A program made the position numbers and the translations under genes. Shown piece by piece: positions 3,927 through 58,514 of a stretch of 58,514 bases of DNA; within the stretch, counting starts at the first letter, position 1; each line of letters starts with the position of its first letter. A model generated the notes under the pieces. The model saw only the letters and a program-made list of their open reading frames with translations, was not told where the DNA came from and ran no database searches. Location of the stretch: positions 1 through 58,514 of the IMG/VR virus record IMGVR_UViG_3300032157_000372. One strand, given 5' to 3'. Source of the DNA: a virus.

Positions 3927-4124
3927 GACCTGGACGCTGCGCGAGCCGTCGGCGTTCGACTCCTTTGCGTTGTCGTGGGCACGCACGAAAGCCGCCGCCG
4001 TCGCCATGTCCGCCAAGCTCACGCCGTCGAGTGTGCGGGCGTCCGGCTCGCCGATGCCCATGGTCGAGAAGGCGATGCTGTTGATGGCCCGGACGATCTC
4101 GCGCGCCTCGTTGATGTTCATCGC

Positions 4125-11472: not shown

Positions 11473-12663
11473 GTGAGCGACAAGCCGCAAAAAACAGAGC
11501 GCGTGCAACGCGTCGCCGAGCTGGACGACCAGCGCTATTCGATCCAGCCGGCGGACGCCGTGCTCGACGCGAACCTCACGCTGCCGCATTTCCGCGTGCT
11601 CGGCTACATCGGCCGCGTCAACACCTCGCGCGGCTGGTGCGAGTTCTCGCAGAAGGCGTTCTCGAAGCTCACCGGCATCAACCGCACGACGATCAATCTC
11701 GCGCTCTCCGACCTCGTGCGCTGGCGCTACGTCGAGCTGCGCACGCAGAAGACGACGCGCTCCTCGTTCTGCCACTATCGCACGCTGATCGATGACCCGT
11801 TTTTCGACGCCGAGGCCGAGCACGCCGCGCGCGGGGGAGTGTCGGCTGGGGACAACACCCCCCCCGAGGGGGGAGTGTCGGCCGGAGACAACACCCCCCC
11901 GGTGGGGGGAGTGTCGGCTGGGGACAACACATGTGTCGGCTCCACACAACACGGGAGTCGGCTGGGGACGACACCCCCCATTAGTAAAGCTCGCGCGCGC
12001 TCTAGATCAGAGATCAGAGATCCTTCCCCCCCTACCCCCCGCGAGGACGCGGGGGGCTGGGCGAGTGGGTGGGGAAAACCTGTTCGTGAAGCAGTGGACG
12101 AGCTGCGCAAAAGCGCTCTCATCGCCTACGTGGCCACCAACTTCGTCGACGAGGTGCGCGGCACGCTGAGCCCGCCCAAGGGCGTCGACGGCGCCGCCTT
12201 CGTGCGCCAGCTCGCCTCCCGGCTCGGCCGCTTCGACGCCACCGTCCTCAAGGCCACCGCGCAGCACATGCTCGACACGCGCGGCCACAACCTGCCGGCG
12301 GCGCCCGAGATTGAGCGCGCCGCGGCGAGGCTCGCGAAGCTGCCGCCGGCAAGGCCTGCACCGATCGTTGTCGACGCCGCGCGCGTCGAGCGCCCGTCGA
12401 TCTTTGTCGCGCACGCCGCGGCCGTGCGCGCGCGTCTCGAGGAGCGCGTCGGGCCGGACGTGTTTGCGTCGTGGTTTGCCGATCTCGAGGTCGAGCAGAT
12501 CGCGGGCGACCTCGTCACCGTGTCAGTGCCCGTGAAGTTCGTCCGCACCTGGATCGAAACCCACTGGTCGACCGAGCTGGCGGACGCCGTGCGCGCATCG
12601 ATCGCCGGCGCCGAGCGCGTGAAGGTGATCGCGCTCGCCGAGCCGAGGAGGACCGCAGCATGA
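11473..12663 (+). CDS. Replication initiator: winged helix plus DnaA N-terminal-like domain
   Basis: Protein of 396 residues from GTG 11473 (an upstream ATG at 11383 is less likely). The N-terminal part (about 30-110) is a winged helix (HFRVLGYIGRVNTSRG ... FSKLTGINRTTINLALSDLV), typical of replication initiators. The middle is a linker with three GGVSAGDNTPP repeats encoded by iterons. The C-terminal 70 residues (VRARLEERVGPDVFASWF ... VPVKFVRTWIETHW) match domain I of DnaA, which contacts DnaB. There is no AAA+ ATPase domain, so it probably recruits host helicase to an origin in its own gene, like lambda O. Confidence 0.82.
   Translation: MSDKPQKTERVQRVAELDDQRYSIQPADAVLDANLTLPHFRVLGYIGRVNTSRGWCEFSQKAFSKLTGINRTTINLALSDLVRWRYVELRTQKTTRSSFCHYRTLIDDPFFDAEAEHAARGGVSAGDNTPPEGGVSAGDNTPPVGGVSAGDNTCVGSTQHGSRLGTTPPISKARARSRSEIRDPSPPTPREDAGGWASGWGKPVREAVDELRKSALIAYVATNFVDEVRGTLSPPKGVDGAAFVRQLASRLGRFDATVLKATAQHMLDTRGHNLPAAPEIERAAARLAKLPPARPAPIVVDAARVERPSIFVAHAAAVRARLEERVGPDVFASWFADLEVEQIAGDLVTVSVPVKFVRTWIETHWSTELADAVRASIAGAERVKVIALAEPRRTAA
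11833..11980 (+). repeat. Iterons, candidate replication origin
   Basis: Five related units sharing GTGTCGGCTGGGGAC-like cores. The GTCGG anchors fall at 11841, 11877, 11913, 11935 and 11957, so the spacing is 36, 36, 22 and 22 bp. The first three are flanked by G5-6 and C7-8 runs, making each unit a hairpin-like inverted repeat. An AT-richer segment with repeated AGATCAG follows (11981-12023), like an unwinding element. Confidence 0.75.
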
Positions 12664-17248: not shown

Positions 17249-17263
17249 GAGAGGGAAAACACG

Positions 17264-17551
17264 ATGAAGCTCACGGACATCTACGACAACGCGACGCTCA
17301 CCGGCGACCGGCAGGCCGCCTCGCAGATCCTGCGCGCGCTCGCCCAGGGCGAGGCCGTCGAGGTGCTCTGCAACGGCACGGGCTATCGCTTCGACAAGGG
17401 CGATCCCGGTCACGCGGCCCTGCTGGCCGAGTTCGCCGCCGAGTTGGGGCGCCTCGACGACAAGCTGCGCGCGCTGGGCATCGACGTCGACCTCAAGCCC
17501 GACGAGCCCGGCGACGGTGACGGCGACGACGAGGAGGGCGGCGACCAATGA
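17264..17551 (+). CDS. Hypothetical acidic protein
   Basis: Protein of 95 residues with a GAGGG ribosome site before ATG 17264. The first 70 residues look folded (ASQILRALAQGEAVEVL); the last 20 are Asp/Glu/Gly-rich (PDEPGDGDGDDEEGGDQ), a DNA-mimic-like acidic tail. Function unknown. Confidence 0.68.
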   Translation: MKLTDIYDNATLTGDRQAASQILRALAQGEAVEVLCNGTGYRFDKGDPGHAALLAEFAAELGRLDDKLRALGIDVDLKPDEPGDGDGDDEEGGDQ

Positions 17552-17820
17552 GCGGCAACAAGTACGATGCCGAGCTCAACGCCACGCTGACGCAGGGCGA
17601 GATTGCAAACTTCACCGCCCGCGCGCTCGCCCACGGCTGGCGCCATCCCGACGAAGCGCCGGCCTACCGCGACCTGCACCTCGTCATCCTGCCGAACAAG
17701 ACCGTCGTCCGCGGCTGGCTGGTGACGCACCTGCGCACGCTGCCCCGCGCCTTCTTCACCTACGTCGACGGCGTTGCGCGCCTGGTGGAACCTGTCGCCT
17801 GGTGCGAGGTCGAGCCGTGA
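17548..17820 (+). CDS. Hypothetical protein
   Basis: Protein of 90 residues, ATGA-coupled to the preceding gene. A compact alpha/beta domain with no recognised motif (HGWRHPDEAPAYRDLHLVIL). It stands in a chain of tightly coupled small genes. Confidence 0.67.
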   Translation: MSGNKYDAELNATLTQGEIANFTARALAHGWRHPDEAPAYRDLHLVILPNKTVVRGWLVTHLRTLPRAFFTYVDGVARLVEPVAWCEVEP

Positions 17821-18053
17821 TGACCGAGCGCGAAATGCTGGCCAAAGGCTTCCGCCCGATCGACGAGCTCGTCGAGGAGCACCGCCCCGTCGAGTTCCTG
17901 CTCTGGGGCGGCCTCACCTGCCGCGGCTTTTTGATGGTCGGGGTGCCGCACCCGATGGCGCGCACGTTCTGGACCCGCGCCTGGGGCGGCATGCAGAACG
18001 TCAAGCCCGTTGCCTTCCGTCCCGATCCGCTCGAGATGGCGAGGGCGATCTGA
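17820..18053 (+). CDS. Hypothetical protein
   Basis: Protein of 77 residues overlapping both neighbours by one base (TGATG). It is beta-rich with aromatic residues (ARTFWTRAWGGMQNVKPV). Function unknown. Confidence 0.66.
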   Translation: MTEREMLAKGFRPIDELVEEHRPVEFLLWGGLTCRGFLMVGVPHPMARTFWTRAWGGMQNVKPVAFRPDPLEMARAI

Positions 18054-19114
18054 TGGGCAACAGGCAACAGGCAACAGGCAACAGGGGCGGCGCCGCTGCC
18101 CGCTGCCCCCTGCCTGCTGCCGCCCCTTACTACTACACCGCCGACATGCTGCCTCCGATGGGCATCGTCGTGCGCGTCGTGTGGGACGGGCGCGGGCCGT
18201 TCGAGGCCGCACGCGTGATGAAGCCGGCCAAGCGCCATCAGCGCACCGAGTGCTGGCTCACGCATCACCACGGCGAGGCGGTATTCCTGCCCGAGGGCGG
18301 GCCCGGATTCGCGCCCATGGAAAGCGACCAGCCGCAGATCTGGCAGCCGCTCTCGGCGCGCCACTGGTCGCTCCCGCTCCCCGAGCGCACGGCGACGCTC
18401 ATGCCCGACGAGGGCCGCATGTGGTCGTCGCGGCAGAGCTTCGGCGCCGTCGACGATGCGGAAGCATCCGACCTCGCCAAGGAAATGGAAAACGACCGCC
18501 ACGCGGCTGGCTCCCATCGCGAGGGAGGTATTGCCGGAGGCGATCCGACCGAGCAACAGCGCGGAGCGCGAAGAAAATTATGGTGGCGCGACGCGACGCT
18601 GGTCAAATACTCCGCGCCCGGCCGCATCGTGAAGCGCGAGGCGGAAGCGCGCATCATGCGCTACCTCGCCGGCGAGGACCTCTCCGGCTTCATCCACGGC
18701 GCGGGCCTGCACCGCCGCCCGTTCGGCCTCTCCGACGACGACCTGCGCGCGCTCGCCGACCTCGAGGGCTCGCGCCTCGCCGACGCCATCCTGCGCTTCG
18801 ATCCCCTCCCTCAGGACTTTGCCGACGAGGAGACGGCCGGCATCTGGTTTGCCGCGCTGGGTCTCGAGGGCGGCGGCCGGGCGCGCCAGCGCGTCCTGAT
18901 CTTCGCCTCGCGCGACCTCGCGCTCTCGTTTGCCGAGATCGGCTCGGCGGCGGGCGTGAGCCGGGCGCGCGCACACCAGATTTACGGCGACGCGATCGAG
19001 CGCGTCTGGGCGATCGCCAACGGCGAGCGCACGGCGGGCATCGCCAAGCGCGACGCGGCGATCGAGCGCATCCGCATCGGCAACCGGCAGCACCGACAGA
19101 GGGAGAGGGCATGA
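18053..19114 (+). CDS. Helix-turn-helix protein with repeat-encoded N-terminus
   Basis: Protein of 353 residues. The first 24 residues (MGNRQQATGNRGG...) are translated from the GGCAACA repeat, and the original start was probably ATG 18146 (MLPPMGIVVRV). The C-terminal part (LALSFAEIGSAAGVSRARAH) is a sigma-70-region-4-like helix-turn-helix. The middle contains a beta-rich domain and a linker rich in Gly and Glu. A phage transcription regulator is likely; whether it controls late genes is not shown. Confidence 0.7.
   Translation: MGNRQQATGNRGGAAARCPLPAAAPYYYTADMLPPMGIVVRVVWDGRGPFEAARVMKPAKRHQRTECWLTHHHGEAVFLPEGGPGFAPMESDQPQIWQPLSARHWSLPLPERTATLMPDEGRMWSSRQSFGAVDDAEASDLAKEMENDRHAAGSHREGGIAGGDPTEQQRGARRKLWWRDATLVKYSAPGRIVKREAEARIMRYLAGEDLSGFIHGAGLHRRPFGLSDDDLRALADLEGSRLADAILRFDPLPQDFADEETAGIWFAALGLEGGGRARQRVLIFASRDLALSFAEIGSAAGVSRARAHQIYGDAIERVWAIANGERTAGIAKRDAAIERIRIGNRQHRQRERA
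18056..18121 (+). repeat. Palindromic element family 2, copy 1
   Basis: Four GGCAACA units (18056-18087) face GCTGCC-type units (18094-18121) across a short GC-rich loop. The arms pair with A-C mismatches on this strand that become G-U pairs in RNA of the opposite strand. The element begins two bases after the ATG and is translated. Confidence 0.8.
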
Positions 19115-19209
19115 TGAGGCAACAGGCAAGAGGCAACAGGCAAGAGGGGAGGGCGCCAGCAACTGCTGCCTGCTGCCTGCTGCCTGCTGCCTGCGGGGCC
19201 GCCACATGA
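19111..19209 (+). CDS. Mini-ORF made of a repeat, joining two genes
   Basis: A 32-codon frame from ATG 19111 to TGA 19209 consists almost wholly of a family 2 element (starting MMRQQARGNRQ). It overlaps the upstream stop and the downstream ATG (19206) by ATGA at both ends. It may be translated only to keep the two genes coupled. It is probably not a functional protein. Confidence 0.45.
   Translation: MMRQQARGNRQEGRAPATAACCLLPAACGAAT
19118..19194 (+). repeat. Palindromic element family 2, copy 2
   Basis: Left arm of GGCAACA/GGCAAGA units (19118-19148) and right arm of TGCTGCC units (19163-19194). It lies between the stop and start of adjacent genes. Confidence 0.8.
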
Positions 19210-19901
19210 GCAATCTGAAAAAACTCGCCAAGGATCTCGGTTTGAAGACGGCCGATTCTTTGCCCCCGCGCTCGCCTTCGGCAAGACGCGCGGGACCCGA
19301 AAAGCCCGCGCCCGATCACAAGGCGGCCCGCGAGCGCTGGCCGTCCGACATGCGGCTCGCCTTCGCGGTCGTGGCGCCCGCGGCCTACTGCATCGTGGCG
19401 ACCGACGGGCCGGTCTCGCTCACGCTGCACAATCCCGACGGCTCGGTCGCGCGCCGCTTCGGCCACAACCGCGGCGTCTGGCCGGCCGAGGTGGCCAAGA
19501 CCTCGAATTTCAAGGACACCGTCACGCACAACTACGACAAGTTCCCGCTCGCCTTCTACGGCACGCAGGTGCGCATCTGGGCGCCGACGATCGCCATGCG
19601 CGACGCGGCGGCCGACGACGCGCTCGCCGTGCTCGGCGCCCAGGCCGAGGCCGAGGGCGGGCTCGCCGAATTGCGCCGGCGCGCGCTCGACCTCGGGCCC
19701 GCGATCGACTTCGCGCTGCTGACGCGGGGCCTGCGCGAGCGGGCGGCGTCGCTCGGCATCAAGACGTGGGTCGACGCCGAGCTCGAGGCCTGGCTCGAGG
19801 ACCTGGTCCGCCGCGCCAACGAGGTGCGCGCCAAGAACGGCGGCACCTTCAAGCAGACCGTCGAGCGCCTGGCGTGGAAATCGATCGAGCAGCGGGGGTG
19901 A
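19206..19901 (+). CDS. Hypothetical protein with an in-frame palindromic element
   Basis: Protein of 231 residues. After the first 17 residues, an inserted segment SLPPRSPSARRAGP is encoded by palindromic element copy B. The main body (about 40-231) is a folded alpha/beta protein with DMRLAFAVVAPAAYCIVATD and a helical C-terminus. The position just after the mini-ORF suggests translational coupling. No family recognised; the domain looks conserved enough to be a real phage protein. Confidence 0.72.
   Translation: MSNLKKLAKDLGLKTADSLPPRSPSARRAGPEKPAPDHKAARERWPSDMRLAFAVVAPAAYCIVATDGPVSLTLHNPDGSVARRFGHNRGVWPAEVAKTSNFKDTVTHNYDKFPLAFYGTQVRIWAPTIAMRDAAADDALAVLGAQAEAEGGLAELRRRALDLGPAIDFALLTRGLRERAASLGIKTWVDAELEAWLEDLVRRANEVRAKNGGTFKQTVERLAWKSIEQRG
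19259..19299 (+). repeat. Palindromic element family 1, copy B
   Basis: Arms CCCGCGC (19265-19271) and GCGCGGG (19288-19294) around CTTCGGC-type spacer, preceded by TTTG. It is translated in frame inside the 19206-19901 gene. Confidence 0.78.
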
Positions 19902-19904
19902 GCC

Positions 19905-20342
19905 ATGACGACACTTGAAGACGAAATCGAGGGCATGAGGCAGCGCATGGTCGCCTCGGCGCGGTCGGAGCGCGAGCGCGTGGCCGACCTCGGCGAGCAT
20001 CTGAAGGCGTCCGACGAACTGCTCGTCGGCGACGTGCGCCTCATCACCGCCCAGCACGAGGAGCGCCGGCGCGCGCTGCTCTCCGAGCTGCAGCGGCTCG
20101 CGTCGCGGCTCGGTTACTTGCCCATCGCGACGCCTCCGGCTACCGCGATGGGGCCCGCTACGGTCGCGCGTGTCGAGCAAGCGGGGAGGCGTGATCTTGC
20201 GGCCGATTGCCGATTGCCGGCTGCCGGCCTTCCCGAGGAGCCGGTGATGACGGAGGCCGATTTCATGGCCGAGCTCGCCCGCCACGGACTGCCCTGGCCC
20301 GAGCACGGGCCGCCGCCGCATCGCAACGGGAGGCCGCAATGA
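19905..20342 (+). CDS. Hypothetical protein split by a palindromic element
   Basis: Protein of 145 residues. The first 70 are a coiled-coil-like helix (RQRMVASARSERERVADLGE). Then comes copy C of the palindromic element (YLPIATPPATAMGP) plus about 20 further repeat-like residues. The last 30 (MTEADFMAELARHGLPWP) look like an independent short helical protein with its own ATG at 20247. Two small genes may have been fused by the insertion. Confidence 0.65.
   Translation: MTTLEDEIEGMRQRMVASARSERERVADLGEHLKASDELLVGDVRLITAQHEERRRALLSELQRLASRLGYLPIATPPATAMGPATVARVEQAGRRDLAADCRLPAAGLPEEPVMTEADFMAELARHGLPWPEHGPPPHRNGRPQ
20118..20160 (+). repeat. Palindromic element family 1, copy C
   Basis: Identical over 43 bp to copy A (6666-6708), with arms CCCATCGCG and CGCGATGGG. 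Translated in frame inside the 19905-20342 gene. A short family 2-like stretch (20202-20228) follows. Confidence 0.88.
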
Positions 20343-57466: not shown

Positions 57467-57868
57467 ATGTTCGGGATTGATCTCGCCGCCTGGCTCGCAG
57501 GAAGCGCGCTGGGCCGCTTCTGGAACAAGGACACCGCGAAGGCGATCGCCGTCGTTGTGGTCGCGCTCGCCGTGCTCATCGGCGGCATTCTCGTCTGGCG
57601 CGCGATCGGCGCCGCCGCCGTCGCGGCCAATGATGCCGGCTGGCGCGCGAAGGCCGCCGCCGCCGCCTACGCCGAGCGCGGCCGCCAGCTCGCTGTCAAC
57701 AGCCGTGCCGAAGCCGCCGCCGCCGCCGAGCGCGAGGTCTACGTCGGCCAGATCCGCGACATGGCCGAGCATGCCGTCACGCTCGAGGCCGAGCTCGCCC
57801 GCCTCAAGGGCGTCGACGGCGATCCGATCATCTATCCGAAGTCGCTCGCAAGGGAGCTGCGCAAATGA
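57467..57868 (+). CDS. Inner-membrane spanin (Rz-like)
   Basis: Protein of 133 residues with one N-terminal transmembrane helix (AIAVVVVALAVLIGGILVW) and a long periplasmic coiled coil. The partner outer spanin starts inside its last codons. Confidence 0.85.
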   Translation: MFGIDLAAWLAGSALGRFWNKDTAKAIAVVVVALAVLIGGILVWRAIGAAAVAANDAGWRAKAAAAAYAERGRQLAVNSRAEAAAAAEREVYVGQIRDMAEHAVTLEAELARLKGVDGDPIIYPKSLARELRK

Positions 57869-58212
57869 AGATCGGCAACAGGCAACAGGCAATAGGCATC
57901 CGGGCGCTCGCTGCTGCCTGCTGCCTGCTGCCTCTCTTTCTCGCCGGCTGCGCGAACGGCGACGTGCCGGTCGACTGGCTCGCGCTGACCGAGGCCGAGC
58001 CCGCGCCGGCGCCGTCGCTCCCCGCCGAGTGCGTGTCGAAGGATCGCGCCTGGACAGACGTGCCCGACGCCGACGTCACGCGCTCGCAGGGCGCTGCGAA
58101 CCTCGATCGCAACAAGCGGGCCTACAAGGAGCTGATCGCCAAGCGGCGCATCTGCACGGCCGCGCTGCGCGAGCAATTCCCGACCGCGTGGGCCGTGAGC
58201 GTCAATAAGTGA
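57865..58212 (+). CDS. Outer-membrane spanin lipoprotein (Rz1-like) with repeat-encoded signal
   Basis: Protein of 115 residues starting in the ATGA of the inner spanin. The lipobox LAGC is preceded by a signal peptide whose residues (GNRQQAIGI, then AAACCLLP) come from a family 2 palindromic element. The mature part is 83 residues, Pro/Asp-rich then helical. Together with the upstream gene it should fuse the two membranes at lysis. Confidence 0.85.
   Translation: MKIGNRQQAIGIRALAAACCLLPLFLAGCANGDVPVDWLALTEAEPAPAPSLPAECVSKDRAWTDVPDADVTRSQGAANLDRNKRAYKELIAKRRICTAALREQFPTAWAVSVNK
57874..57933 (+). repeat. Palindromic element family 2, copy in the outer spanin
   Basis: GGCAACA, GGCAACA, GGCAATA (57874-57897) and TGCTGCC units (57912-57933). 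Fully translated into the signal peptide. Confidence 0.85.
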
Positions 58213-58235
58213 AGCTGATCCTGGAGGGGGAACCC

Positions 58236-58514
58236 ATGGACAAGAGAAAGCTCGAAGCCTTCGGCGCGATCGCGCTGGGCATCGCGGTCATGCTCATCGG
58301 CGTCAAGATGGCGATCACGTATGCGAGCGCGCCCGACGTTGCTGTCGTCGCCGCAGACACGCCCGCGCCCGTCATGATGGCGACGCAGGGCGAGGTCGAC
58401 GACCTGCGCCTCTCGCTCGGCGCCGCCACGGCCGCGATCGAGCTCATGGACGCGCGCGTCGCCCGGATCGAGGCCGAGATCAAGAAAGCCGCCGCCAAGA
58501 AATCGAAGCGCTGA
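58236..58514 (+). CDS. Small membrane protein at the window end
   Basis: Protein of 92 residues from ATG 58236, after a GGAGGGGG ribosome site. One hydrophobic helix (AFGAIALGIAVMLIGVKMAI) near the N-terminus and a basic coiled-coil tail. May be a holin or antiholin, but that cannot be shown. The TGA is the last triplet of the window. Confidence 0.7.
   Translation: MDKRKLEAFGAIALGIAVMLIGVKMAITYASAPDVAVVAADTPAPVMMATQGEVDDLRLSLGAATAAIELMDARVARIEAEIKKAAAKKSKR

Follow-up and report, generated by a model that had tools for sequence, protein, structure and literature searches.

A short palindromic repeat built of 7-nt units, dispersed in three copies through a temperate phage genome, appears to have been recruited to form the n-region and the larger part of the hydrophobic region (h-region) in the lipoprotein leader of a putative outer spanin (o-spanin). 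This is the best reading of the sequence and a well supported one, because the o-spanin gene offers no alternative canonical start, excision of the element leaves a product that fails the lipoprotein rule, and the leaders in related lysis cassettes are free of the repeat.

The lysis cassette and its spanin pair

The window, that is, the whole 58.5-kb virus record analysed here, belongs to a temperate phage; the gene at its left end is apparently integrase-like, a name taken from its N-terminus. Its right end is a lysis cassette of endolysin, inner spanin (i-spanin), o-spanin and a small membrane protein, with the following features:

about 56.6-57.5 kb, endolysin
57467..57868, + strand, putative i-spanin, 133 aa, with an N-terminal transmembrane segment, assigned by position and topology
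57850..57856, + strand, Shine-Dalgarno-like AAGGGAG, 8 nt before the ATG at 57865
57865..58212, + strand, putative o-spanin, 115 aa, MKIGNRQQAIGIRALAAACCLLPLFLAGC..., with the lipobox LAGC and an expected lipidated Cys29
57874..57932, + strand, element copy C, 59 bp, (GGCAACA)2 GGCAATA GGCA, loop, (TGCTGCC)3
57934..57951, + strand, end of the leader beyond the element, CTC TTT CTC GCC GGC TGC = LFLAGC (lipobox)
58209-58514, small membrane protein, downstream of the o-spanin

The Shine-Dalgarno-like site is not part of the element; it falls within the 3'-terminal stretch of the i-spanin gene. The o-spanin ATG (57865-57867) and the i-spanin TGA (57866-57868) share a 4-nt overlap (ATGA), so that the o-spanin does begin inside the i-spanin gene, as the first-pass annotation had it, but only by these four letters and not well inside. 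Kongari et al. (2018, PMC6139136), as far as their account of spanin layouts goes, class a pair with an 8-bp overlap as 'separated', and by the same criteria the 4-nt overlap makes the pair in the window 'separated' as well. At the other end, the o-spanin stop and the start of the gene at 58209-58514 overlap in GTGA; this gene is possibly a further lysis or holin-like gene.

The spanin assignment of the ORF at 57865-58212 is putative and draws on position and anatomy. The ORF directly follows the i-spanin within a lysis cassette, the placement expected of a two-component o-spanin, and its lipobox-bearing leader matches the PROSITE rule PS51257 at Cys29 (LAGC; a match to the pattern only). Its codon use resembles that of the other genes. 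Profile support is a weak match to phrog_456, Rz-like spanin (E 0.0068); the ORF had no match in Pfam, and the i-spanin no significant family match in profile searches. Searches of IMG/VR, of phages, of 28 related viral records and of 397 genomes from the order to which the relative L123 (see below) belongs turned up no credible homologue of either spanin.

Anatomy of the leader and its dependence on the element

The o-spanin leader has 28 residues and reads as MKI, then the element, then LFLAGC. The element encodes residues 4-23 (GNRQQAIGIRALAAACCLLP), its last codon ending at 57933, and both MKI and LFLAGC lie outside it. The first-pass annotation had placed the repeat at 57865-57960 and credited it with the first 30 residues and with the export signal as such. 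A repeat palindrome is indeed translated just before LAGC, but its share is narrower: residues 4-23, corresponding to the predicted n-region and most of the h-region, with the lipobox coming from elsewhere.

Reading back 180 nt from ATG 57865 in the o-spanin frame, one meets no ATG, GTG, TTG, CTG or stop, and the next in-frame ATG, GTG or TTG lies past the lipobox. No other canonical start of the o-spanin yields a leader. Excising the element in silico in four ways gave MKILFLAGC... and its like, with the Cys at position 7-10, and PS51257 was failed by all four excised versions (4/4). Given the lack of another start and the failure of the excised forms, the leader would consist of the element plus MKI and LFLAGC. 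Leader quality was judged here by pattern (PS51257) and hydropathy; the h-region contains a proline.

Leaders in related lysis cassettes

The closest cassettes found, with endolysins 41-61% identical, come from the viral contigs L030, L031 and L032 and from two cellular sources, L123 (a Bradyrhizobiaceae MAG) and L124 (a Xanthobacter chromosome). Each has a transmembrane protein followed by a short lipoprotein ORF that carries no heptads and has an ordinary leader, with its Cys at 17-25. The o-spanin leaders begin, in the same order, MTRSKRIP.., MNARSHLF.., MNTSFWRQ.., MPSPRRNR.. and MRLTALLV.., and in L030, L123 and L124 the o-spanin starts inside the preceding i-spanin frame. All phrog_456 matches are weak: it is the best family for the window's o-spanin and for L031 (E 0.05) and the second for L124 (E 0.033). 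The comparison with related spanins that the first-pass annotation had proposed thus gives five cassettes with different leaders and no repeat, and none with the window's leader lacking the repeat. Since the mature o-spanin parts of these relatives are too diverged from that of the window for alignment, they represent the normal look of the site, not an empty site in the same gene. Two contigs with a related terminase, L121 and L122, had no matching lysis cassette.

Three copies of a palindromic heptad element

The window contains two further copies:

18056..18122, + strand, element copy A, directly behind the ATG of TGATG
19117..19194, + strand, element copy B, directly behind ATGATGA

Copy C matches 18052-18115 (copy A) at 81% (E 8e-13) and 19125-19185 (copy B) likewise at 81% (E 6e-11), which bears out the earlier view that it belongs to a repeat family. 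The two-arm heptad pattern, present in the window, appeared in 0 of 100 dinucleotide shuffles. All three copies have one common orientation and sit right behind a stop/start overlap, GGCAACA being preceded by TGATG in copy A, by ATGATGA in copy B and by ATGA AGATC in copy C. They are also read: in frame, copy A is the N-terminus of the ORF at 18053-19114 (MGNRQQATGNRGGAAARCPLPAA...), the frame continuing into the downstream gene; copy B forms a short ORF (from 19111/19114) that ends in a TGA overlapping the ATG at which the following gene starts (19206); and the reading frame of copy C runs into the o-spanin.

Dispersed copies with inverted arms are features that the element shares with MITEs or mobile palindromic repeats; its arms are plain heptads. 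Inspection of the flanks of copies A and C revealed no target-site duplication; copy B has CATGA on both sides, which may be chance. A search for homologues of the copy A gene that might reveal an empty site gave none, and neither this search nor those made with the o-spanin turned up a homologue whose gene lacks the element.

About 1 kb separates copies A and B, which both fall in a single series of small overlapping genes (17260-19210), where the 32-33 aa ORF of copy B bridges two genes via stop/start overlaps at both ends. Elsewhere in the window, a single-arm run like GGCAATCGGCAATCG occurs on the minus strand at 20204-20225, within the ORF at 19905-20342, and may represent a halved or decayed relative. 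A tandem array at 11833-11974 has a 36-bp unit (GGGGGAGTGTCGGCTGGGGACAACACCCCCCCCGAG) in about 2.7 copies together with degenerate 22-bp units.

Why these heptads can read as a leader in every frame

In a 7-nt repeat, each stretch of 21 nt visits all three frames, and the resulting frame independence is a matter of arithmetic. Because of the unit length, every frame of (GGCAACA)n translates as GNRQQAT and every frame of (TGCTGCC)n as CCLLPAA, the left arm bearing Arg and the right arm being hydrophobic. As the element is nearly palindromic, the minus strand reads similarly, with GSRQQAA followed by CCLLPVA. The right arm had earlier been said to happen to encode Leu, Cys and Ala; the composition is as described, but it is built in, the heptapeptide being the same in all frames. 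That repeats of an oligomer are coding in every frame is an idea that reportedly goes back to Ohno. Delihas (2007, PMC2759123) cites Ohno 1987.

When the 18 strand and frame readings of the three copies were swapped into the o-spanin, 17 matched PS51257 and one contained a stop. This substitution assay keeps the LFLAGC tail and scores the insert solely as a possible n- and h-region; in it, about 17% of random 60-mers from the same phage also pass (17-18%), 6% pass at the lowest hydrophobicity of the elements and 2.2% reach the native value. The 17 readings fit a lipoprotein leader because the heptapeptides, Arg-bearing and then hydrophobic, are the same in every frame. The property is uncommon among heptamers: when all 2,344 types were cast in the same palindromic form and judged at the lowest hydrophobicity of the elements, 71 passed in all six frames, as did 18 of the 1,024 with like G+C. 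GGCAACA and GGCAGCA pass this six-frame assay, and GGCAATA, GGCAGTA, GGGAATC and TAACTGA fail it.

A wider family of heptad palindromes

The strict two-arm pattern was found zero times in viral contigs. A relaxed pattern, with GGCARNA and TNYTGCC arms, recovered 28 distinct elements in 26 other viral contigs. The two-arm pattern was likewise absent from GTDB genomes and from 199 genomes of L123's family and 385 of its class, in searches with exact patterns that may miss variants; plasmids held no element, and a literature search for the literal heptad strings returned nothing. Most relatives are intergenic, many within about 20 nt of the end of a neighbouring ORF (on a crude ORF map). The common GGCAATA and GGCAGTA versions bring TAG into all frames, with stops in 115 of 168 readings; set against these, the nearly stop-free version in the window is the readable kind. 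Among 69 heptad clusters screened, only the window's o-spanin combines a start preceded by a Shine-Dalgarno site with a lipoprotein leader, so the leader potential is rarely used.

Two relatives may be singled out. In L143, a GGCAGAA-type palindrome (3936-3979) is apparently read in frame inside an 835-aa DNA methyltransferase-like ORF. In L148, a close kin of the element (1486-1537) lies between tail-like genes, one of which, we presume, resembles the DUF2460 gene of gene transfer agents. L148 comes from a metagenome that also holds L041, a contig with a terminase identical to that of this phage; the IMGVR record 3300032144 contains such a terminase-identical contig.

Strand-asymmetric pairing

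In RNA from the minus strand, all three copies pair nearly in full using G-U (z -4.2 to -5.7 vs shuffles). In the plus-strand RNA, A.C mismatches recur at intervals of about 7 nt (z about -2.2), an asymmetry common to all copies. No Rfam family reached its gathering score at the element, and a terminator scan found no terminator-like site there. The element may have an antisense or boundary hairpin role, which is compatible with its role as a leader.

Origin of the leader and competing explanations

We think it probable that a repeat-derived element now encodes the n-region and the larger part of the h-region in the o-spanin's type II signal peptide. The founding event would have been an insertion of the element, with replacement of an older o-spanin leader. 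The left arm with its Arg would then serve as n-region and the right arm, CCLLP, as most of the hydrophobic region, the element-coded part being joined to the outside lipobox LFLAGC; the product is predicted to be processed by the host lipoprotein machinery (Lgt, LspA) and to function in lysis. Behind any start codon the element should make a crude leader, because it is frame-independent and stop-free and its arms run from basic/polar to hydrophobic. On this view the transposition would be recent, and the o-spanin is predicted to be lipidated.

The strongest competitor, in our judgement a distinctly less likely one, holds that the element is mainly an RNA or DNA boundary hairpin (for translation coupling, mRNA stability or an antisense RNA) and that leader coding is a tolerated by-product. 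The position of all three copies at stop/start overlaps and the pairing of the minus-strand RNA fit this, as does the intergenic location of most relatives, which recalls other bacterial heptamers as far as their description extends (PMC4692102). Yet such a hairpin is compatible with a leader role: the o-spanin, with no other canonical start, would be leaderless without the element, and neither the terminator scan nor the Rfam scan favours a hairpin function.

Heptamers can expand by slippage. An ordinary old leader whose codons drifted or slipped into heptads in place, with no insertion, would accord with the failure of homologue searches to find an empty site and with the simple composition of leaders in general. 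We regard this as improbable, since slippage gives direct repeats rather than a pair of complementary arms, the two-arm unit recurs at two unrelated gene junctions and in other phages, and the minus-strand folding is far beyond that of shuffles (z -4.7). Still less probable is that this ORF lacks o-spanin function and that the real o-spanin lies elsewhere or lysis takes another route. The weak family match and the i-spanin's lack of any significant one speak for this, but the ORF follows an endolysin and a transmembrane protein, has a lipobox and ordinary codon use, and the same weak family recurs at the same place in L031 and L124.

Beyond recruitment of the element as a leader, a more general proposal is speculative: stop-free heptad palindromes might be frame- and strand-independent leader donors, and here one might have let the spanin pair pass from overlapped to separated with the lipoprotein signal kept.

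Relation to known systems and meaning

A repeat-supplied leader is already known from Yersinia YPO1552, whose predicted 41-residue signal peptide takes its residues 1-30 from an RU-2/YAPL repeat; homologues elsewhere carry leaders of their own that lack the repeat (Delihas 2007, PMC2759123; PMC2229807). As in the window, a small dispersed palindromic repeat gives the leader, and homologues or relatives lack it. RU-2 is, however, a 168-bp MITE of a bacterial chromosome that provides a general secretory signal, whereas the element here is a 59-bp heptad palindrome of a phage, with a predicted lipoprotein signal and frame-independent coding. In-frame palindromes within protein genes are likewise known, from the Rickettsia palindromic elements (PMC10969869). 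By description these resemble the window's element in being kept in frame within genes, but they measure about 100-150 bp, have a conserved peptide per family and occur in unrelated metabolic genes.

Other heptamer repeats, GGGNATC of Xanthomonas/Nostoc (PMC4692102) and TAACTGA of Beggiatoaceae (PMC4679880), are described as mostly intergenic, GGGNATC lying between co-directed genes near stop codons (PMC4692102). They share with the wider family here the 7-nt unit and the location mostly between genes. They differ in forming direct arrays without inverted arms, and the accounts drawn on report no leader role. For spanins, Kongari et al. (2018, PMC6139136) note that switches between overlapped and separated layouts must leave the o-spanin a lipoylation signal. 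There too, the leader varies and the remainder of the protein is retained; the switches involve a homing endonuclease gene or duplication, and the parts of that account on layout describe no repeat-encoded leader.

What appears to be new is the setting in a phage lysis gene, the lipoprotein leader and a frame-independent reason for its function. Nothing is overturned, the principle having bacterial precedent. The case would be a concrete instance of usually non-coding repeat DNA that has turned into a targeting signal within a compact pair of phage genes. It also provides a simple rule for any genome: a repeat with a unit length not divisible by three encodes one peptide in all frames, and for that reason some such repeats are ready-made leaders.
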